A stretch of DNA of 64,000 nt. Source: Geothrix limicola (GTDB taxonomy: Bacteria > Acidobacteriota > Holophagae > Holophagales > Holophagaceae). Where the stretch lies: positions 1,054,001 to 1,118,000 of the forward strand of contig NZ_BSDE01000001.1 of assembly GCF_030268085.1 (NCBI RefSeq), read 5' to 3'. Positions 19,163 through 28,830 of the stretch are shown here, in pieces (position 1 is the stretch's first letter; each line of letters begins with the position of its first letter). The notes below the pieces were generated by a model. That model saw only the letters and a program-made list of their open reading frames with translations. It ran no database searches and was not told where the DNA came from. The position numbers and the translations under genes are program-made.

Positions 19163-22100
19163 TCAGAGCGGGGTTTTCGCCAATTTCTGGGCGCGCTCAT
19201 CCTGAGCCTTCCATTCCGCCAGCAGGTGTCCGTTCAGGCCGAACGCCTCCGCAAAAACACGGTGCGCCTCGGCGGCCATCGCGCTTCGTGCTCCCGTGGG
19301 GAGCCCTTCGGCCTCCTCCAGTTGCAGGGCCCCCTGCACCGCCATCGCCTCGCCCCACCGGGGCCGAAGGGTCCCGAGGTGGGCCAGCAGCGCCTGGGCG
19401 CGAGCCCGGCTGGAGCGTTCACTGGGACGCTCGTCCTGTGCCGAGGCGCGCTCCCCCCGCGTCGAGAGGCGTTCCGCCCCCGCCGCCGAAAGGCGTTCCC
19501 CCGGCGCCGAGAGGCGTTCCCATCGGGCCTCGGCCAGGTAGCAGCGGGCCAGCAGCAGTTCGAGATCCGTGGCTTCGGGCGCCACCTTGAGTGCCTGCTC
19601 CAGGGGCTGGGCCGCTGAGCGGAAATCACGGGGCTGGGCCCGCAGGTGGGCGGCCTTCCACTGGGCCGCCGCCACGCGCAATTCACCGAGGTACTGGAGC
19701 GCGTCCCGGTCCTGGGCATCCACTGCGAGCGCCTTGGCCAGCAGCGCCTCGCCGCGCTGAAGGTGCGAGGCCGGTTCGGCGCCGTCCCGCAGGCAAAGCT
19801 CCAGCCGGACGGCGCAGGCCCGTCCCAGGTTTGCCTGGACGGTCTTGTTCCCCGGAGCGATCGCCAGCGCCTTCTGCAGGGCGGCCTCGGCTTCCCGAAG
19901 GCTTTGAAGGGCCTTGGCTCCGGTTTCCCAACGGGCCTTCCAGATCAGCAGATCCCCCAGGTTGAGGTGGCCGTGCACCTGGTTGGGGGCCACCGCCACG
20001 GCCTGCCGGTAGGCCGCCTGCGCCTGGACCAGGAAGGGAGAGGGTTCCCGCCCGGCGTCCCAGGCGGATTGGGCCAACAGGAGCTGGGCCAGCCCGACGA
20101 CGTTATGCAGATGGGGCACGGCCCGGTTGATCTCCAGACCCTGGCGGCTGGCGTCCAGGGATTGCCGCAGCTCCGGCCCCGGATCCTCGCCCCGCTGGCG
20201 CTTGCGCAGGGCCAACTCGTACCAGACCCGGGCCTTCACGTAATAGGGGACGAAGTGCTTGGGATTGAGGGACTGGGCCTGGCCCAGTACTTCGAGAGCC
20301 GTCTTCAGGTCCTCCTCGGGATGGGCCCCCCCGGGAAGCGCGGCCCGCTGCTGGAGGCAGGTGCCCAGGTTGATCCAGGCGGGCAGCAGGTGCGGTTCCA
20401 TCCGCGTGGCCTGCTCGTAGGCGGCGATGGCGCCGTTCAGATGCGCGGCGGGGTCTCGCCCGTTCTGCCCCTCGAAATCGGACCAGGTCTGGTGGATGAG
20501 GCCGATGTGGTTTTCCACGGCGTAGTCGCGCTTTTCGGTGGAAAGAGATTCGAAGGCTTTGAGCCCCTTGGCCAACTGGTCGGTGGGATCGCGGTTCTGG
20601 TCCTGGCGCGCGTTTCCCCACTGGTAGTAGGCCATCCCCAGGGCGACCCAGGCGTCGGCGCGAGTAGATTCAGCCTCCAGCGCCTTCCAGGCCGTCATCA
20701 CCGCCTGCTGGCCAAGATCTTCGGCATCCTCGCTGCGGTTCGATTTGAAATCGGAATAGTGCCGGAGCAGGCCGGATTCCAGGATGAGCGAAGGCACGTG
20801 GTCCGGCTGGGCCCTCAGCGCCAGTTTGGCCGCCGTCATGCCCCTTTCGAAGGCCGGTTCCACGTGGCCCTGGCCGTACTTCTCCATGATCAGGGCATTG
20901 AGTTCCAGCTCCGCCATGGCCGCGTAGATCGCAGGCGCGCTGCGCCCGCTGGTGGCCGCCGCGGCGAGGATCTCGCGACCCGCGTCGAAATCCGCCAGGG
21001 CCGCCTCTCGTTCTCCCTGGTTCCAGCGCTTCCAGGCCCGGGCCTGGAACAACGATCCGCGGAGGAGCGGCGCCTCGTAGAACCAGGGCAGTTCCTCCCC
21101 CAGCGCGCGAAGGCGCTCCAGGGCCTCGTCCAGGCGCCCCTCACAGAAGGCCATCAGGGCCTCCAGGTACTCCGGTGAAGGCACATCGGCGCCCTTCGCC
21201 TGATGCAGGAAGGTCAGGGCCGGCGCGCGCAGGGTCGCGTCGATGCTCTGCATCCGCGCGCTGCGCTGGTCGGCCGAAGGAATGCGCTCGGCCTCCAGCA
21301 GTTTTTCGCGGTACTGCTGGCCCAGCACCACCGCCAGGGCATAGGCCACGCGAGGCGCGCGGTAGCCGGCATCCCAGGCCATCTGCAGGTGTTCGCGGGC
21401 CTTCTCGTCATCCTCGAGTGTCCAGTAGCCGCGCCCCAGCGCGTAGTGTCCAGGCCCGTTGGCGATGGGCCCGGCCTGCCGCATGTCCTCCTGCAGCCGG
21501 GCCATGTGATCCCGCACGGCCTTCAGATCGGGACGGATGTCATGCAGGGGCGCCAGGGCCGAGTAGCGCGCCATGGACTCGATGCGGGCCATGGACTCCG
21601 TGAACTCCTGGGCCAGCCTTTCGCGGCGACCGGCGTCCCGCCTCGTTTTCAGGGCCATGCCCAGAGACACGGACACCACCAGCAGGGCAGCGGCGCCAGC
21701 ACCCGCGAGCTGCTTGTGCTTCTGCAGCTTGCGCTGGAGCCGGTACCAAAGCCCCGTGGGACGCGCAAGCACGGGCTCACCGGCGAGGAACCGGTCCAGG
21801 TCGTCGGCCAGGACCTTGGCGGAGTCGTAGCGCCGGGAGCGATCCTTCTCCAGGCACTTGAGGGTGATGGCCTCCAGATCCTTGGGAATGTCCATCCTGA
21901 AGGTCCGCATGGATGGGACCTCGTCCGACGTGACGGCGCTGAGGATCTCCAGCGCGTTGGAGCCGGAGACCGGCGAGTGGCCCGTGCTCACCTGGTAGAG
22001 GGTGGCCCCCAGGCTGTAGACGTCGGTGCGGCGGTCCAGGCGGGACACCTCGCCCCGCGCCTGCTCCGGGGACATGAAGGCCGGCGTGCCCAGCACGGAT

Positions 22101-22696
22101 CCGGTCTCGGTGACGTCCTGGTTCCATTCGTGGGCCAGTCCGAAATCCATGACGAAGGTGCGCAGGGCTCCGTCCTCCGCCCGCTCCACCATGATGTTCG
22201 AGGGCTTCAGATCCCGGTGGATGATGCCCACCCGATGGGCCTCGTGGACGCCTCTCGCTGCGTCGCGCACCACGATCACCTTCTGCTCCAGCGACAACTC
22301 CGCGGCGAGCGCATCCAGCGAGCGGCCGGGGATGTGCTGCATGGTGATGAAGACCCGGCCCCCCACCTCGCCCACTTCGAAGACCTTGCACACATGCTCG
22401 TGATCCACGCGGGCCTGGGCCCTGGCCTCCAGCAGGAAACGCTGGAGATGGCGCTCGCCCTCGATGCGCACGAACTTGATGGCCACCTCGCGCCCCAGGC
22501 GCCGATCCCGGGCGAGGAACACCAGCCCCATGCCACCCTGTCCGAGAAACCCCAGGGGCTCGTAACGGTCCCAGTCCTTGATGGGGAAGTCCGGGTGGCT
22601 TGCGTGCGCGCTGAAGGCGAAGGCCGAACCATCCCCGGCCAGGGTGTCCGCCTGGGACAACTCTGAAGCCGATGGGAAGTCCCGCCCGTCCTCCAT
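19163..22696 (-). CDS. Ser/Thr protein kinase with membrane segment and long TPR C-terminus
   Basis: A 1177-residue protein. The kinase domain spans about 44-305: Gly loop GQGGMG (52-57), VAIK Lys (74), HRDLKPSN (160-167), DFG (184-186) and GTPAFMSPEQ activation segment (203-212). One membrane segment follows at about 329-347, then about 800 residues of helical repeats of TPR type, probably outside the inner membrane. A low-complexity ERLS-rich insert sits near 1058-1097. The start at 22696 is chosen because the family N-terminus begins there; in-frame Met codons at 22804, 22807 and 22852 are possible but give an unusual leader. It is divergent from an FHA-SpoIIE phosphatase, a plausible functional partner. 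Confidence 0.9.
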   Translation of the reverse strand: MEDGRDFPSASELSQADTLAGDGSAFAFSAHASHPDFPIKDWDRYEPLGFLGQGGMGLVFLARDRRLGREVAIKFVRIEGERHLQRFLLEARAQARVDHEHVCKVFEVGEVGGRVFITMQHIPGRSLDALAAELSLEQKVIVVRDAARGVHEAHRVGIIHRDLKPSNIMVERAEDGALRTFVMDFGLAHEWNQDVTETGSVLGTPAFMSPEQARGEVSRLDRRTDVYSLGATLYQVSTGHSPVSGSNALEILSAVTSDEVPSMRTFRMDIPKDLEAITLKCLEKDRSRRYDSAKVLADDLDRFLAGEPVLARPTGLWYRLQRKLQKHKQLAGAGAAALLVVSVSLGMALKTRRDAGRRERLAQEFTESMARIESMARYSALAPLHDIRPDLKAVRDHMARLQEDMRQAGPIANGPGHYALGRGYWTLEDDEKAREHLQMAWDAGYRAPRVAYALAVVLGQQYREKLLEAERIPSADQRSARMQSIDATLRAPALTFLHQAKGADVPSPEYLEALMAFCEGRLDEALERLRALGEELPWFYEAPLLRGSLFQARAWKRWNQGEREAALADFDAGREILAAAATSGRSAPAIYAAMAELELNALIMEKYGQGHVEPAFERGMTAAKLALRAQPDHVPSLILESGLLRHYSDFKSNRSEDAEDLGQQAVMTAWKALEAESTRADAWVALGMAYYQWGNARQDQNRDPTDQLAKGLKAFESLSTEKRDYAVENHIGLIHQTWSDFEGQNGRDPAAHLNGAIAAYEQATRMEPHLLPAWINLGTCLQQRAALPGGAHPEEDLKTALEVLGQAQSLNPKHFVPYYVKARVWYELALRKRQRGEDPGPELRQSLDASRQGLEINRAVPHLHNVVGLAQLLLAQSAWDAGREPSPFLVQAQAAYRQAVAVAPNQVHGHLNLGDLLIWKARWETGAKALQSLREAEAALQKALAIAPGNKTVQANLGRACAVRLELCLRDGAEPASHLQRGEALLAKALAVDAQDRDALQYLGELRVAAAQWKAAHLRAQPRDFRSAAQPLEQALKVAPEATDLELLLARCYLAEARWERLSAPGERLSAAGAERLSTRGERASAQDERPSERSSRARAQALLAHLGTLRPRWGEAMAVQGALQLEEAEGLPTGARSAMAAEAHRVFAEAFGLNGHLLAEWKAQDERAQKLAKTPL
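19406..19527 (-). repeat. ERLS-type micro-repeats inside the kinase gene
   Basis: The DNA contains several imperfect copies of a gaggcgttcc-centred unit, encoding ERLSAPG, ERLSAAGA, ERLSTRG, ERASAQD and ERPSE in a row. The copies are 7-8 codons apart. This looks like a slippage-prone expansion inserted between two TPR helices. Confidence 0.7.
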
Positions 22697-22894
22697 GGCC
22701 TTAGCCCCTAGTCCCGGAACCCTCGCCCCTCGGGGCGAGCCTCGCGATCGCACCTGAAAGGCAGCCTGCCTGTCGACACATGGTTCCCCGGGGATCGAGG
22801 TCATCATAGGCCAACCGGAGATAGGCAAGGTGGTGTACCTTGCTCTTCCCAACCTCTACCCCATTCCCGTCCCCGTCCTTGTGGCCGAGGTCCC

Positions 22895-24541
22895 GTGACG
22901 AACCTGGTGCTGCACGTCCCCGGCAGGCCGCCCTTCCAGTTGGAAGGCGAGGGAAGGTCGTGGACGCTGGGGCGGTCCTCGCAGAACGACGTGGCCATCC
23001 CCGACGTCAGCCTCAGCCGTCATCACGCGCGCATCAGCTGGAAGGACGGCGTGGCCTACCTCGAGGACCTGGGCTCCCTGAACGGCACCTCGCTGAACGG
23101 AGAGCGGATCACCACCGCCCATCCCCTGCAGGATGGGGACGAGATCCTGCTCGGCCAGGTGCTCCTGCGGCTGGGTTCCCCCTCTCGCGGCCCCCGGGTG
23201 CATATCGGCGCCGAGAGCGACCAGTCTTCCTCCGCCGGCTCCCTCGTCCTGCCCCTGGAGCGCATCAGGGCCCTTCCCGAGCGGCGAAGCGAAGCACCCC
23301 AGACCCTGCGCCTCCGGGAAGTGATCCAGGAGATCCAGTCCCTCACCCTGGAACTGCTCCAGGACACGCCTCCCGAAGAACTGCTCTCCAACCTTCTGGA
23401 CCGGCTGTGGACCCTGCTCAAACCCTGGCGGGCCGCCGTGCTGATCCTCGACAGCCAATCGGGCCTGCACACCGTCGCCTCGCGGGGGCCCGAAGGCAAC
23501 CAGCCGATCCTCCTGGCACGGAGCCTCGTGGACGCGGCGCTGGAGCGGAAGGAATCCGTCCTCTTCAACGACCTGGGCGATAGCCAGGATGGCCAGGGCC
23601 TGGCCTCCCCATCCCTCGTGCTCAGCGGGATCACTTCGGCCCTGGTCACGCCCCTCGAGCACCAGGGTGTCGTGAAGGGCCTGCTTTATCTCGATTCCCG
23701 GGCACCGCGCCTCCCCTTCGACGAGGAGGATCTGCGCCTCGCCAACACCTTCGCCCACCTCGCCACCGCCAAACTGGAACAGGCCCGCATGCGGGAAGAA
23801 GCCATGGCCCGCAAGAAGCTGGACCAGGAGCTGGATCTGGCCCGTCACATCCAGCAGGGCCTCCTGCCCGGATTCCCGCCTGAGATCGCAGGCTACGAGA
23901 TCCAGGGCAACAACCTGCCCAGCCGCCAGGTCTCGGGCGACCTCTTCGGGTGGTGGCCCCGCAGCGACGGGCGCTGGCTCTTCTGTCTGGCGGACGTGAG
24001 CGGGAAGGGCCTGGGCCCGGGCCTGCTGATGGCCTCCATGCAGGCCACGCTGGAGGCCTGGACCGAGCGCGATTTGTCCACCGCCGACATGGCCTTCCAG
24101 CTCTCCCGGATGCTCGCGCGACACACGGACGGGCGGCGCTTCGTCACGGCCTTCCTGGCTCTGCTGGATCCCCGAACCGGCGCACTCACCTACACCAATG
24201 CCGGCCACAACCCGGCCCTCCTCCTGCGTCCGGGCCGTCCAGTAGAGACCCTCGATGCCCAGGGCCTTCCCATCGCCATGCTGCCCGGCCACCCCTATGC
24301 GGAAGCCACCCTCCAATTGGCGCCCAGGGATCTGCTCGTGGTCTACACCGATGGCATCACCGAAGCCACCGATCCCGGCAATGAGGAATTCGGCGCCGAG
24401 GCCCTCCAATCCCTGCTCGTGGCCAAGCAGCACGAACCGCTCCTGGCCTTGGATGCAGCCATCCTCGGCGAGCTGGATCGCTTCACCCAGGGGGCCCCCT
24501 ACCAGGACGACCGCACCCTCCTGATGCTGAGGCGGATCTGA
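22895..24541 (+). CDS. FHA-GAF-SpoIIE protein phosphatase
   Basis: A 548-residue cytoplasmic phosphatase. Residues 1-95 form an FHA domain (LGRSSQNDVAIPDVSLSRHHARI, then GSLNGTSLNG) that reads phospho-Thr. A GAF-like domain spans about 150-300. A coiled linker (about 305-325) leads to a SpoIIE/PP2C domain (about 330-548) with SGDLFGWW, LADVSGKGLGPGLLM and YTDGITEATD carrying the metal-binding Asp residues. The domain order is that of RsbU-like partner-switching phosphatases, with FHA replacing the usual sensor. No anti-sigma-antagonist gene is near. It is divergent from the Ser/Thr kinase, whose phosphorylated form could recruit it through FHA; that is inference. Confidence 0.9.
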   Translation: MTNLVLHVPGRPPFQLEGEGRSWTLGRSSQNDVAIPDVSLSRHHARISWKDGVAYLEDLGSLNGTSLNGERITTAHPLQDGDEILLGQVLLRLGSPSRGPRVHIGAESDQSSSAGSLVLPLERIRALPERRSEAPQTLRLREVIQEIQSLTLELLQDTPPEELLSNLLDRLWTLLKPWRAAVLILDSQSGLHTVASRGPEGNQPILLARSLVDAALERKESVLFNDLGDSQDGQGLASPSLVLSGITSALVTPLEHQGVVKGLLYLDSRAPRLPFDEEDLRLANTFAHLATAKLEQARMREEAMARKKLDQELDLARHIQQGLLPGFPPEIAGYEIQGNNLPSRQVSGDLFGWWPRSDGRWLFCLADVSGKGLGPGLLMASMQATLEAWTERDLSTADMAFQLSRMLARHTDGRRFVTAFLALLDPRTGALTYTNAGHNPALLLRPGRPVETLDAQGLPIAMLPGHPYAEATLQLAPRDLLVVYTDGITEATDPGNEEFGAEALQSLLVAKQHEPLLALDAAILGELDRFTQGAPYQDDRTLLMLRRI

Positions 24542-24612: not shown

Positions 24613-25290
24613 ATGAAGGTCCTATTGGTCGAGGATGATCCGCGAGCCGCGGCAAGCCTGGAGCGGAGCCTCCGGGAGCAGGGCTTTTCCGTAGAGGTGG
24701 CCTTGGATGGTTTGAAGGGTCTGGAACTGGGGAAATCCGCCAGCTTCGACTGCTTGATCCTGGATGTGATGCTGCCGGGGATGGATGGATTCTCCCTGCT
24801 CTGGGAACTGCGCACGGCGGGCATCGAGACACCGGTGATGTTCCTCACAGCCCGAGATACGCTTCCCGACAAGGTGCGCGGGCTGGAGCTGGGTGGCGGC
24901 GATTACCTGGTCAAGCCCTTCGCCTTTTCCGAGCTGTTGCTGCGGATCAACAACCTGCTGTCGCGGGGATCGACCACGGGGGCCAAGACCTGGGTCATCG
25001 GCGACCTCACGGTGAATCCCTTCCAACGCAAGGTCTATCGGGGCGCAGATCGCCTCGACCTCAGCTCCCAGGAATACGCGCTGCTCGAACTCCTGGTCCG
25101 GAACGCAGGCCACATCGTGACCCGCACCCGCATCGCCGAGGAACTGTGGGACCTCTCCTACCAGGGGGATCCCAACCTGGTGGATGCGGCCGTGCGAAGG
25201 CTGAGGAAGAAGGTGGACGATCCCTATCCGCAGAAAATCATCCAGACCCGCCGAGGCGTGGGCTACCTGGTCGAGCCTGCCCATGCTTGA
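24613..25290 (+). CDS. OmpR-family response regulator, heavy-metal (CusR/CopR) type
   Basis: A 225-residue regulator. The receiver has acidic residues at VEDD (7-9), the phospho-acceptor Asp51 in LILDVMLPG, and the KPFAF Lys near 101. A winged-helix OmpR domain follows with the DNA-contacting RRLRKKVDD and the RGVGYLVE wing. LTARDTLPDKVRGLELGGGDYLVKPFAF and IAEELWDLSYQGDPNLVDAAVRRLRKKVDD closely follow the heavy-metal regulator pattern. The start is at MKVLLVEDD. The stop overlaps the kinase gene by 8 nt, so both are made together. Confidence 0.93.
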   Translation: MKVLLVEDDPRAAASLERSLREQGFSVEVALDGLKGLELGKSASFDCLILDVMLPGMDGFSLLWELRTAGIETPVMFLTARDTLPDKVRGLELGGGDYLVKPFAFSELLLRINNLLSRGSTTGAKTWVIGDLTVNPFQRKVYRGADRLDLSSQEYALLELLVRNAGHIVTRTRIAEELWDLSYQGDPNLVDAAVRRLRKKVDDPYPQKIIQTRRGVGYLVEPAHA

Positions 25291-26638
25291 GACCCTTCGC
25301 CGCTCGATGATTCTCCATTTGGCCGTGGTGTTTGCCTTGGGCATGTCCGCTGTGGTGGGGGGCGCGGGGCTCTACCTGCATACCTCCATGACACATGCGG
25401 TCTACGCCCAGGTGAATCGGGACCTGCTTGAATCCGCGCGCCTGACCTTGCACCGGCTCGAAGAAGACAAGATGGAACCCGATAAGGAGTTGCTCGACCT
25501 TGGGGACAACGTGTTTCTGCGCCTCACGACGCCCGCGGGCAAGGTGGTTCTTGAAAGTCCCGAATGGGCCCATCTCCTGCCCAGGAAAGCCCCCGTCCCC
25601 ATGGAGAACTGGTCCTGGTGGGAAAGCCCGCTGAAGGAACCCGTGCGCCTCAAAATCGTCACGTTCCGCTATCAAGGCGGATGGATCCAGCTCGCCAGGG
25701 ACATGCATCCGGAAGAGCGAGTCCTGAAGGTTTTTCGAAAATCGTTGTGGGCCCTGCTGGCCATCATCCCCTTCGTGTCAGCGGCGCTTGGATTCACGCT
25801 CATCAGCCTGGGGCTCTCCCCCCTAGAACGGCTCCGTTCGAAGACGGGAGGCATCGGGCCGGAAACCCTGAAATCCAGGATCGATCCCTCCCCCTTCCCC
25901 AGAGAGCTCGATCCCCTCGTGGAGACCGTGAACCGGGCCCTTGACAGGCTGGAGTCAGGATTCACGCGGCTGTCCGAATTGAACAGCGACCTTGCCCACG
26001 AGATGCGCACGCCCGTGCATGCCATGCGCCTGGAGTGCGAAAGCCTCCTCTCCAGCCGGGATCTGCCCGAACCGCTGATGGATCAGCTCGCCGCCATGAT
26101 GGACACCCTGGGCCACATGGGGGCCGTTATCGAACAGATGCTGGTCCTGGCTCGCTTCGAGGATCCATCGAACAGCATCACCCCGATGCTGCTTCAGGCC
26201 GAGACCTTGATTCGGGCCGCGGTGGCACCCTATGAATCTCTAGCGGAAGAAAGGGGCGTCGCCATCGAATGGACCTCCACACCAGGCCTGACCCTCATGG
26301 GCGATGCCACCCTCCTCAAACGCGCGCTGCACAACCTTCTGGCAAACGCCATCCGTCATGCCCCTGGAGGTTCGGTGGTCCGTCTATCGGCTCTGCAAGA
26401 GGGTGATGCCGCCATCCTCGCCGTGTCTGACCATGGGGAGGGCATCCCCGCCAACGTGCTGAACCAGCTGGGCCGCCGCTTTGTGAGGCAGGATGCCTCC
26501 CGCAACCGCCAGGGCGGTGGCGCGGGCCTAGGGCTCGCCATCGTTCAGGGCATCGCCCGACTCCATGGTGCGCACTTTCATATCGAGAGCGAAGAGGGCA
26601 CGGGCACTGTGGCACAAATCACATTCCCTGTTACCTGA
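25283..26638 (+). CDS. Membrane sensor histidine kinase, heavy-metal (CusS) type
   Basis: A 451-residue kinase with membrane segments at about 10-32 and 155-176 enclosing a periplasmic sensor of about 120 residues, a HAMP-like linker, an H-box SDLAHEMRTPVHAM with the phospho-His at 239, and an ATPase domain (NLLANAIRHAP, DHGEGIP, GGGAGLGLAI). The layout matches CusS-type metal sensors. The periplasmic part is rich in Trp, Pro and Glu (PMENWSWWE) and has few His or Met, so its ligand may differ from Cu/Ag. It partners the regulator just upstream. Its stop codon lies inside the 20-bp dyad before the cytochrome-barrel gene. Confidence 0.92.
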   Translation: MLETLRRSMILHLAVVFALGMSAVVGGAGLYLHTSMTHAVYAQVNRDLLESARLTLHRLEEDKMEPDKELLDLGDNVFLRLTTPAGKVVLESPEWAHLLPRKAPVPMENWSWWESPLKEPVRLKIVTFRYQGGWIQLARDMHPEERVLKVFRKSLWALLAIIPFVSAALGFTLISLGLSPLERLRSKTGGIGPETLKSRIDPSPFPRELDPLVETVNRALDRLESGFTRLSELNSDLAHEMRTPVHAMRLECESLLSSRDLPEPLMDQLAAMMDTLGHMGAVIEQMLVLARFEDPSNSITPMLLQAETLIRAAVAPYESLAEERGVAIEWTSTPGLTLMGDATLLKRALHNLLANAIRHAPGGSVVRLSALQEGDAAILAVSDHGEGIPANVLNQLGRRFVRQDASRNRQGGGAGLGLAIVQGIARLHGAHFHIESEEGTGTVAQITFPVT

Positions 26639-26652
26639 TCGAACGATCAGGT
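26633..26652. promoter_or_regulatory. Perfect 20-bp dyad, candidate operator
   Basis: The sequence 26633-26652 is a 9-bp perfect inverted repeat with a 2-nt spacer (acctgatcg, aa, cgatcaggt). It covers the kinase stop codon and lies about 93 nt before the start of the cytochrome-barrel gene. It has no T-tract and only a 2-nt loop, so a terminator is unlikely; a dimeric regulator site fits better. Binding by the upstream OmpR-type regulator is inference, and such regulators more often use direct repeats. Confidence 0.55.
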
Positions 26653-26744
26653 TGGCGTCAGCCTGCGGTCAGGGGAGCCCATTAGGTTGGGTCCATGGGG
26701 TCAATCTGACTCTATTTCATGCGCCCCCGCGCAGGAGGTTTCCA

Positions 26745-28010
26745 GTGAAGTTGCTTCGTTTCCTAGCCCCGCTGTTCCTAAGCTCGGTCCAGCTGTTGGC
26801 TGTTCCCGCCTGGAGCCGCACAACCGGCGCCAGCTGCAACGCCTGCCACGCCACTCCCACCTGGCAGCTCACCTCCATGGGCATGGAGTTCCTCAAGAAC
26901 GGCCACCGGATGGAGGCCCTGAAGGTAGACCCCAAGGATCAGAAGCTCGACAACTACGTCAGCTTGGTCTGGAAGGGCCGCGCCTACGGCGACTCCCTCG
27001 ACACCAAGCGAACGGGCCTGGCCAACACCCAGAAGCCCGCCACCAACTTCGAGCAGCACAGCTTCTCCCTTTACACCGGTGGCGCCCTGTCCGAACGCTT
27101 CTCCTACTTCACCGAGCTCTACCTCAACGAGAACACGGGCAATACCTCCGGCGCCAACATCGTGCAGAGCGACGCCGGCCGCAAGAAGCTCGCGGAAGCC
27201 TTCATCCAGTACAACCAGCCCATCAGCCAGGACGTATTCCTCGCCGTGCGCGCGGGTGAAATCCTCCCCGGCATCCTGCATGTCTTCGGCGTGGGAGCCC
27301 GCAGCGCCGAACAGCGCGCCACCGTGCTGAACGATCAGCTGGCCGGCAGCACGAACACCTTCCGCCCCTTCAGCCGCCAGCAGGGCATGGACGCCACCCT
27401 GGTGGGCAAGCACTTCGAAGCCGCCTTCGGTGTGGTGGATGGGTCCAGCACATCCATCACCAATTCCATCGACGCCGACAACCACAAGGATTGGTACGGT
27501 TCCTTCCTCTACAGCCTCGACAGCCACCACTCTGCCGTGGGCCTCTACCATTACGATGGCCAGTTCTCCAACTACGCCACTCAGAACGATTTCAGCACCG
27601 CCCTCTCCTATGACAACAAGTTCAAGAAGGACGGAATCCTGGCCCGCTTCATCCGCGATAATTTCCGCATCGTGGGTGCCTACTTCATGGGCGAAGAAAC
27701 CATGAACCTCGGTGGCACCAAGACCAAGAACAAGGGCTACTACGGCCTCGTGGATTACAACTTCACCGACAGCTTCGGCATGTATGTCCGCATGGACAAC
27801 CTCGATCCCAACAAGGACCTGGCCAACAACGAAACCACCCAGGCCATGCTCGGCCTGAACGGCATGCTCTACCAGAGCGAAAAGAGCGGCGCCCGCTGGA
27901 ACTTTGAATACACCGAAAAGCAGTCCTACCTCGGCGGCACCATCGCTGCCGCTGGCACCACCAAGTTCAAGGACAAGCGTTACTTCTTCCAGGTCACCTG
28001 GGGCTTCTAG
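26745..28010 (+). CDS. Monoheme cytochrome c fused to outer-membrane beta-barrel (Cyc2-like)
   Basis: A 421-residue protein starting at GTG 26745 behind AGGAGG. A signal peptide (1 to about 22) is followed at once by TTGASCNACH, a single heme c site (Cys31, Cys34, His35), then LTSMGMEFLKNGHRM. The TG-x-SC-x2-CH motif plus a G-x2-F-x3-G segment about 20 residues on is the N-terminal pattern of Cyc2-type fused cytochrome-porins. The remaining ~360 residues show alternating aromatic/polar strands (HSFSLYTGGALSERFSYFTELYLN, WYGSFLYSLDSHHSAVGLYHYDG) and end in YFFQVTWGF, a beta-barrel C-terminal signature with final Phe. Predicted role: electron transfer across the outer membrane. His54, Met46, Met48 and Met56 are candidate distal heme ligands. 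It is followed by its own terminator. Confidence 0.8.
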   Translation: MKLLRFLAPLFLSSVQLLAVPAWSRTTGASCNACHATPTWQLTSMGMEFLKNGHRMEALKVDPKDQKLDNYVSLVWKGRAYGDSLDTKRTGLANTQKPATNFEQHSFSLYTGGALSERFSYFTELYLNENTGNTSGANIVQSDAGRKKLAEAFIQYNQPISQDVFLAVRAGEILPGILHVFGVGARSAEQRATVLNDQLAGSTNTFRPFSRQQGMDATLVGKHFEAAFGVVDGSSTSITNSIDADNHKDWYGSFLYSLDSHHSAVGLYHYDGQFSNYATQNDFSTALSYDNKFKKDGILARFIRDNFRIVGAYFMGEETMNLGGTKTKNKGYYGLVDYNFTDSFGMYVRMDNLDPNKDLANNETTQAMLGLNGMLYQSEKSGARWNFEYTEKQSYLGGTIAAAGTTKFKDKRYFFQVTWGF

Positions 28011-28197: not shown

Positions 28198-28830
28198 ATG
28201 AATGAACATGAAATCGCCAAGGGCCTGGAGGTATGGATTCTCCAGAACCTGCTGAACGCTTCGATCCTGATGGGGATCATGGTTTCCGGGTTATTGCTCG
28301 CCCAAGGCTACTACCGCGAACTCAACCGGCACCTGAACCTTCGCGTGTCCCGGGAACTCTGGAACCTGTTCACGGTGATCCTGGCCGATGTGTTGCTGGT
28401 TGGAATGTTCCTCGTGGGCTACGTCGTCCTCAACCCGGACATCATGGCCGACATCAAGATGGCCGTCCCCTTCTACCCCGTCGCCAGCCTGCTCTTCGCG
28501 GCGGCCTTGATTCTGCGCCTGTTCAAGGGCGGCCATGAGGCGGGTACATCCAGCTTCAACTGGGCGCTGCGACTCAGCCTCGCCGCCAATGCCATAAACA
28601 TGGTGGGATTCACCTTCGTGGCCGAGGCCGCCAGCGACGAGTATCTGGCCCGCCACGCCAGCCCCTTCTGGACCTACCTCAAGACCCACTTGCGTTCCAA
28701 CGCGGATCCCATCGGCCTCGAGGTCGCCCAAGCCACCTTCTTCATTTGCTTCCCCATCCTCCTCCTGCTTTGCGCCTGGGCGGTCAAGTCGGCCATGGTG
28801 AAGATGAAACAGCCACGCGCCAAGGAGTGA
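28198..28830 (+). CDS. Five-helix inner-membrane protein, unknown, paired with ferredoxin
   Basis: A 210-residue protein with hydrophobic segments at about 14-36, 57-80, 88-109, 120-143 and 178-201. His residues near membrane faces (His45, His112, His154, His165) could bind heme b, but no diagnostic pair is clear. A soluble loop of about 30 residues (AASDEYLARHASPFWTYLKTHLRSNADP) lies between helices 4 and 5. I know no family for it. The ferredoxin gene starts 3 nt after its stop, so the two proteins probably act together, for example as a quinone-facing membrane anchor for an electron carrier. Confidence 0.75.
   Translation: MNEHEIAKGLEVWILQNLLNASILMGIMVSGLLLAQGYYRELNRHLNLRVSRELWNLFTVILADVLLVGMFLVGYVVLNPDIMADIKMAVPFYPVASLLFAAALILRLFKGGHEAGTSSFNWALRLSLAANAINMVGFTFVAEAASDEYLARHASPFWTYLKTHLRSNADPIGLEVAQATFFICFPILLLLCAWAVKSAMVKMKQPRAKE

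Follow-up and report, generated by a model that had tools for sequence, protein, structure and literature searches.

A Cyc2-like cytochrome-porin gene of Geothrix limicola and its linkage to a two-component system resembling heavy-metal regulators

Introduction

Does a gene with the architecture of Cyc2 signify iron oxidation when it occurs in an iron reducer? Cyc2-like genes serve as markers of iron oxidation, and those who characterised them asked for tests of other functions. Geothrix is a known iron-reducing, shuttle-using genus. The window analysed here, a stretch of 64,000 nucleotides from Geothrix limicola, contains such a gene, hereafter CYC. An original prediction described its product as a Cyc2-like protein that may move electrons across the outer membrane in either direction, in a Holophagae-like host; the host genus, Geothrix, is indeed a member of the Holophagaceae.

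Results

A one-heme domain fused to a predicted porin barrel

The following features were assigned to CYC.

26733..26738, + strand: ribosome-binding site, AGGAGG
26745..28010, + strand: CYC, predicted fusion of a monoheme c-type cytochrome and a 16-strand outer-membrane porin, 421 aa, GTG start, TAG stop ending at 28010
26745..26801, + strand: signal peptide, residues 1-19, predicted cut after A19 (sequence pattern, 28-sequence alignment)
26835..26849, + strand: heme-binding motif C31-x-x-C34-H35, invariant in 28/28 aligned sequences
26961..28004, + strand: predicted 16-strand beta-barrel, residues 73-420 (AlphaFold2 secondary structure; OprO/OprP Z ~24)

The coordinates of the open reading frame were exact in the original prediction. 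A longer in-frame reading frame from 26565 (481 aa) was rejected, since the start at 26745 is favoured by its ribosome-binding site, by the signal peptide and by the homologues. The predicted signal peptide reads VKLLRFLAPLFLSSVQLLA, with VPAWSR following the cut, and A19, just before the mature start, is invariant across the 28 aligned sequences. CYC exhibits a single CxxCH, C31-N-A-C34-H35 inside TTGASCNACH, to which the only two cysteines of the protein belong. This motif is not a chance occurrence, since it arises in only one of 20,000 shuffles of the protein and its C31, C34 and H35 are invariant in every aligned sequence, across five phyla. It is followed by G46-x2-F49-x3-G53, whose three named residues are likewise invariant, and the C-terminus is ...FFQVTWGF. 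The signal peptide, the one heme motif, the glycine- and phenylalanine-bearing segment and a run of amphipathic strands ending in Phe had all been described beforehand, and each is borne out by the alignment or by the structural model.

The AlphaFold2 model, for which the alignment of 28 sequences was the input, consists of a small domain at the N-terminus and a barrel of exactly 16 strands, which span residues 73 to 420 (pLDDT 78.9, pTM 0.81). Confidence is low in the signal peptide and in short loops. Structure prediction, one of the checks proposed for the original prediction, thus yielded a barrel. Comparison of the model with Foldseek and VIA-align placed 16-strand porins at the top of the fold matches, the best solved folds including OprO (4rjx/4rjw) and OprP (2o4v), with Z ~24 and rmsd ~3.1-3.3 over ~300 residues. 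Cyc2 itself has been modelled with 16 strands on OprO/OprP templates (Keffer et al. 2021, PMC8406198). Searches of Pfam, NCBIfam and PDB sequences with the protein and with a 12-sequence profile assigned CYC to no family, and hence to no non-cytochrome porin family; a match to TIGR01904 (E 0.015) was below the cutoff and covered the heme motif only.

Relation to Cyc2

Cyc2 proteins are recognised by a signal peptide with a single N-terminal CXXCH, a length of at least 365 aa, the motif AXPXFAR[Q/K][T/Y], placed 5 aa before CXXCH and said to be unique to Cyc2, and PXL 4 aa after CXXCH (Keffer et al. 2021, PMC8406198). CYC shows the first of these, with the peptide judged from the sequence, is long enough with its 421 aa, and in the predicted model has the 16-strand barrel with OprO/OprP relatives. 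The upstream motif fits by half: in AVPAWSRTT the A, P, R and final T agree, with W in place of F, S in place of A and T in place of Q/K. Downstream, the sequence is CH-ATPTWQL, in which P38 is present but PTW replaces PXL; the paralogues of CYC have PTL at this position.

Three proteins with the Cyc2 consensus (L010, L113 and L115) were used in hhalign as stand-ins for Cyc2 and aligned with CYC over residues 1-59 only (E 1.5e-10). The profile comparison detected no barrel-sequence similarity between CYC and these proteins. Such Cyc2-consensus proteins were found in Acidobacteriota (L010, L094, L096, L099) and on plasmids of Caballeronia (L113) and Methylocystis (L115), where c-type cytochrome genes lie downstream of them. 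Because the motifs fit by half, the clade is separate (see below) and the similarity is confined to the heme domain, CYC is, as judged from these comparisons, Cyc2-like and not strictly Cyc2. The claim of a Cyc2-like protein therefore holds for the fused monoheme, 16-strand architecture, the OprO/OprP folds and the homology of the heme domain, but not for the strict motifs, and in the tree CYC groups apart from the Cyc2-consensus proteins.

Distribution of the CYC family

In the 84,980 species genomes that were scanned, 27 named CYC loci were found. The identity to CYC is 81% in Geothrix fermentans DSM 14018 (Holophagaceae), whose gene lies on the + strand of contig NZ_AUAU01000005.1 at 173153-174442, 60-70% in Opitutaceae and other Verrucomicrobiota, 51-53% in Bdellovibrionota and 39-41% in an acidobacterial paralogue group that includes Geothrix paludis; outliers complete the set. 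In a maximum-likelihood tree with Cyc2-consensus proteins as the comparison set, 32 rows including CYC fall in one clade (support 100/99), which spans Holophagaceae, Opitutaceae and Bdellovibrionota and in which the Holophagaceae members adjoin those of Verrucomicrobiota. That phyla are intermixed at 60-70% identity suggests that the family has spread horizontally. A protein search found no CYC match in plasmids.

In the wide sense, Cyc2-like genes are present in 120 of 396 acidobacterial genomes. With regard to Geothrix, CYC and its ~43% identical paralogues were found by protein search in 7 of 37 genomes, including that of the window; the gene is thus patchy in the genus and not essential for Geothrix iron respiration. 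The core clade has six invariant residues, E103, H105, E124, E172, H179 and H54, all of them absent from the paralogues (L063-L068); they may form an ion site or supply a sixth ligand to the heme. Given their absence from the paralogues, His54, His105 and His179 cannot be put forward as heme ligand of the whole family. A Bdellovibrio-related MAG (L061 5980-8757) carries two tandem cytochrome-porin copies, downstream of which lie genes for a response regulator, a kinase and a diheme protein.

A linked two-component system of metal-regulator type

Two regulatory genes directly precede CYC in the window.

24613..25290, + strand: OmpR/PhoB-family response regulator, nearest the heavy-metal (CusR/CopR/SilR) subfamily (TIGR01387 250 bits, cutoff 279.2)
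25283..26638, + strand: sensor histidine kinase, nearest the heavy-metal (CusS/CopS) subfamily (TIGR01386 261 bits, cutoff 292.6; Pfam HATPase, HisKA, HAMP)

Both score below the heavy-metal cutoffs, yet TIGR01387 and TIGR01386 are their best matches among all NCBIfam families. A response regulator and kinase pair flanks the cytochrome-porin in 22 of the 27 named loci, from three phyla; among the five loci without the pair, L047 ends at a contig edge. The regulators come first in Geothrix and in L070, and the cytochrome-porin comes first in Verrucomicrobiota, Bdellovibrionota and the paralogues. Heavy-metal scoring of the relatives' regulators covered a subset of loci, in which those tested in Verrucomicrobiota and in L070 passed the cutoffs, with 323.5 (L049), 331.1 (L070) and 346.7 (L054) bits for response regulators against TIGR01387, and 394.7 (L049) and 372.5 (L053, truncated) bits for kinases against TIGR01386. 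For the one response regulator tested from Bdellovibrionota (L062), the top-scoring type was PhoB and not a metal type.

The adjacent metal-type two-component system, which the original prediction does not mention, offers the best hint of the function of CYC, and it points at least as much to a metal response as to iron respiration. A literature search found no publication that joins Cyc2-like proteins with CusR-type regulation, and it is this neighbourhood of CYC with metal-type regulators that is new here. Just upstream of the two-component system, positions 19163-24541 of the window hold a gene for a Ser/Thr kinase of 1229 aa with a long C-terminal repeat region and, opposite it, a gene for a forkhead-associated/phosphatase-like protein of 548 aa, both named from their sequences. 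This pair is not conserved with the cytochrome-porin in the relatives.

Conserved boxes upstream of the cytochrome-porins

The AgrR box of Cupriavidus, ATKACANNNNTGTMAT (ATKACA-N4-TGTMAT), was established by footprinting as the site of an Ag/Cu regulator (PMC7380067). In 305 kb of loci, this box was matched 11 times with at most one mismatch, each time within 600 bp upstream of a cytochrome-porin, namely in 10 of the 11 regulator-bearing Verrucomicrobiota loci and in L070. The chance expectation in simulated sequence is 0.75 per set. The reversed pattern gave no match, spacers of 1-3 and 5-7 bp gave none, and a spacer of 8 bp gave one. L050, which lacks the regulators, also lacks the box. An Ag/Cu-type box was sought in Geothrix as well and was rejected there, the scan of the window and of the Geothrix-group loci L045, L046 and L117 having found none.

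A different candidate box is present in the window.

26635..26673, + strand: candidate response-regulator box CTGATCGAACGATCAGGTTGGCGTCAGCCTGCGGTCAGG, a palindrome with TCAG repeats at 11-bp spacing, overlapping the kinase stop codon, upstream of CYC

It is unique in the 4.23-Mb genome when up to 3 mismatches are allowed, and it is kept in five Geothrix-group loci even where a different cytochrome-porin lies downstream. Within ~220 bp upstream of the paralogous cytochrome-porins of L063-L068, there are conserved TTCATCTTCrCTTCAGG repeats at 11-bp spacing, which probably constitute a third type of regulator box.

Exchange of the cytochrome-porin behind the same regulators

The gene downstream of CYC is conserved in part of the relatives.

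28198..28830, + strand: MP210, small membrane protein of 210 aa with no significant Pfam or NCBIfam match, downstream of the cytochrome-porins in part of the relatives
L117 3613-5499 and L118 3768-5659, orthologous Geothrix locus: 518-aa cytochrome-porin and monoheme cytochrome

In two Geothrix genomes (G007 and G018), orthologues of the regulators (89-90% identity for the response regulator, 76-77% for the kinase) and of MP210 (76-79%) flank a different cytochrome-porin. This protein of 518 aa (AVPSFSRQYGQKCSACH) has clear similarity to CYC in the heme region only, and the order is the same box, the 518-aa cytochrome-porin, a 104-aa monoheme protein and MP210. G. fermentans and G017 show a CYC that is kept (81%) with regulators that are more diverged (kinase 48-49%). 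The presence of two types of cytochrome-porin behind a single regulator locus suggests that they have equivalent tasks, and the exchange constitutes a natural experiment on their functional equivalence.

MP210 exhibits the motifs LEVW, NPDI..DIK.A.PF.P, GF.FV.EAA and RSN. It occurs in 18 of 396 acidobacterial genomes and adjoins cytochrome-porins only in Geothrix and in G056; elsewhere, most MP210 genes are away from cytochrome-porins even when wide flanks are considered, and MP210 was therefore rejected as an obligatory partner. In another acidobacterium (L022 5969-9150), a 5-heme cytochrome with a weak likeness to ExtKL, a Cyc2-like cytochrome-porin and a homologue of MP210 are encoded one after the other.

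Co-encoded electron carriers

No cytochrome gene was seen next to CYC in the window genome. Seven Opitutaceae loci encode a short monoheme protein (KLAWNKKAKKYD..TACTACHVPEKPKK..) upstream of the cytochrome-porin, with ~20 nt between the two genes, and the C-terminal tail of this protein was also seen before the cytochrome-porin of L047. The window genome encodes two homologues of it at G000 C1:615896-616620, in tandem and directly before an 11-heme/b561 protein.

L110 8792-9627 and 9831-11717 (G000 C1:615791-618716): tandem small monoheme cytochromes and 11-heme b561 cytochrome

Similar 11-heme proteins are found beside this carrier family in other Geothrix genomes (L111, L112), and the tandem monoheme and 11-heme/b561 genes likely form a quinone-linked electron-transfer unit. 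Their presence qualifies the contrast that had been drawn between CYC and multiheme porin-cytochrome systems: CYC has one heme, 16 strands and one chain, as proposed, but the same genome encodes an 11-heme/b561 cytochrome. Among the other relatives, L050 has a class-I cytochrome c and a NapC/NirT-type multiheme protein encoded after the cytochrome-porin, and L135 has a monoheme cytochrome in this place. The carriers of the relatives are the set that would be expected for a path from the outer membrane to the quinone pool, along which they may interact.

Discussion

We consider it probable, though far from certain, that CYC is a metal-regulated one-protein electron conduit of the outer membrane. 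In this proposal, CYC would be exported by Sec and its small N-terminal domain would receive one covalent c-type heme. The 16-strand porin would hold the heme domain at its periplasmic mouth, and a soluble redox-active metal ion, or a shuttle, would enter the pore and exchange an electron with the heme. The heme would exchange this electron with a small periplasmic monoheme cytochrome, from which the path would lead to a quinone-linked multiheme cytochrome of the inner membrane. The adjacent two-component system, nearest CusRS/CopRS, would switch CYC on via the box just upstream. The analysis establishes the gene and its heme motif, a predicted barrel, the clade, the linkage to the regulators, the conserved boxes and, in relatives, the co-encoded cytochromes. 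We infer heme attachment, an outer-membrane location, electron transfer, and a metal as both signal and substrate. Several observations weigh against this reading: the window regulators score below the heavy-metal cutoffs, the Ag/Cu box is absent from the window, the regulator of L062 is PhoB-type, neither a metal-resistance gene nor a cytochrome gene was recognised among the neighbours of CYC inspected in the window, and CYC is patchy in the genus.

The substrate and the direction of transfer are less constrained. Iron is only one candidate, and copper or another metal may serve: the analogy with Cyc2 points to Fe(II) oxidation, the regulation to detoxification of Cu(I) or another metal, and the habits of the host to electron export. 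Electron uptake is slightly favoured, with Fe(II) or Cu(I) as the reduced ion that gives up the electron, because the three biochemically characterised Cyc2-type proteins work in this way.

Foremost among the alternatives, although unlikely, is that CYC is an iron oxidase in the strict sense of Cyc2, oxidising Fe(II) in its pore and passing the electrons to respiration, for example to nitrate or traces of oxygen. Cyc2 oxidises Fe(II) and has a redox potential near +208 mV (Keffer et al. 2021), and all three divergent Cyc2 proteins characterised biochemically share this activity (PMC8406198), which, together with the architecture, the template folds and the homologous heme domain, argues for the same function in CYC. 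The half-fitting AVPAWSRTT, the PTW in place of PXL and the separate clade argue against it, as do linked regulators and boxes of metal-stress type. Moreover, the authors of the Cyc2 tree caution against transferring function to divergent homologues (PMC8406198), and the Geothrix genomes of a Trout Bog survey have no oxidative-EET genes listed for them (PMC12285243).

That CYC serves metal detoxification is doubtful and comes second. It would be induced by Cu, Ag or another toxic cation and would change the redox state of the ion at the outer membrane, for example by oxidising Cu(I) to Cu(II) without oxygen, with the heme replacing the multicopper oxidases of aerobes, or by reducing a toxic oxidised metal. 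Besides the CusRS/CopRS-type regulators and the Ag/Cu box, this is consistent with the CusA-, CusB- and TolC-like efflux genes of the paralogue locus L063, parts of which set also lie beside L065-L067, with a copper-type P-ATPase near L068 (Geothrix paludis), and with a copper-type P-ATPase fragment and a Met-rich secreted protein near the outer relative L136. However, the neighbours of CYC that were inspected in the window, and those in most Opitutaceae loci, include no recognisable metal-resistance gene. L050, where neither regulator nor box is present, looks respiratory by its cytochrome c and NapC-type protein, and we know of no enzyme with such an activity. A bolder version, to which we attach little probability, is that horizontally spread, metal-induced cytochrome-porins carry out redox detoxification, most simply as O2-free oxidation of Cu(I) at the outer membrane, with the electrons passing via a dedicated monoheme carrier to the quinone pool. 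If so, they would be the anaerobe's replacement for the multicopper oxidase and outer-membrane protein of aerobes, CueO or PcoA with PcoB.

Third in order, and also unlikely, CYC would let electrons out: during metal or redox stress, periplasmic electrons would pass through the heme to a soluble acceptor such as an Fe(III) chelate or a quinone or flavin shuttle. The iron-reducing, shuttle-using physiology of Geothrix fits this role, as does the adjacency of the 11-heme/b561 protein to the carrier family in this genus. NapC-type quinol dehydrogenases, one of which adjoins the cytochrome-porin in L050, usually deliver electrons outward. Against it, multiheme routes exist for this task, and we know of no fused monoheme cytochrome-porin with demonstrated outward transfer. 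It is very improbable that CYC is a selective porin with a structural or sensory heme, for example one gating the uptake of metal complexes without conducting electrons: the OprO/OprP-like fold and the common metal-type regulation of transport proteins would fit, but the invariant heme motif in 28 sequences from five phyla, the recurrent co-encoded monoheme and multiheme cytochromes and the exchange for another cytochrome-porin with a soluble cytochrome behind the same regulators all speak against this reading.

The clade places the Cyc2 architecture in a model iron reducer (G. fermentans DSM 14018, among others) and links it, in several phyla, to two-component regulators, which in much of the clade are of a metal-responsive type. 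If the link to metal holds for CYC as a metal-regulated conduit, the presence of a cytochrome-porin in a genome would not on its own mean iron oxidation, and one-heme conduits of the outer membrane would act in metal stress. Regulation of metal type also makes the function of CYC directly testable in the cultured strain, for which candidate partners and a promoter box are at hand.

Among known systems, Cyc2 and Cyt572 (clusters 1-3) are closest: like CYC, they have a signal peptide, one CxxCH right after A-x-P-x-aromatic-x-R, the G-x2-F-x3-G segment, a homologous heme domain and a 16-strand barrel nearest OprO/OprP in 400-odd residues. CYC differs from Cyc2 in AVPAWSRTT for AXPXFAR[QK][TY] and CHATPTWQL for a strict PXL, in its own clade (100/99) and in the attached metal-type two-component system. 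The Cyc2-consensus proteins share the superfamily and the domain order with CYC, carry FARQT...C..CH..[FP]PELT..GR.FK, have GY where CYC has His54 (NGHR), and are far from CYC in the tree. The phosphate-selective porins OprO and OprP have a similar barrel (Z ~24), but are without a heme domain and only 13-14% identical in sequence. MtrCAB and MtoAB/PioAB perform the task proposed for CYC, the transfer of electrons across the outer membrane, with several proteins, at least 10 hemes and 26 strands (PMC8406198), whereas CYC would use one protein, one heme and 16 strands; lacking a separate multiheme cytochrome inside a 26-strand barrel, it falls outside the MtrAB/MtoAB type. With regard to CusRS, CopRS and AgrRS, the tested Verrucomicrobiota regulators near CYC relatives pass TIGR01386/TIGR01387 and their loci carry the Ag/Cu box, whereas the Geothrix regulators have diverged and are accompanied by a different box. 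The target here also differs from that of these systems, being a heme-bearing porin and not an efflux or oxidase gene.
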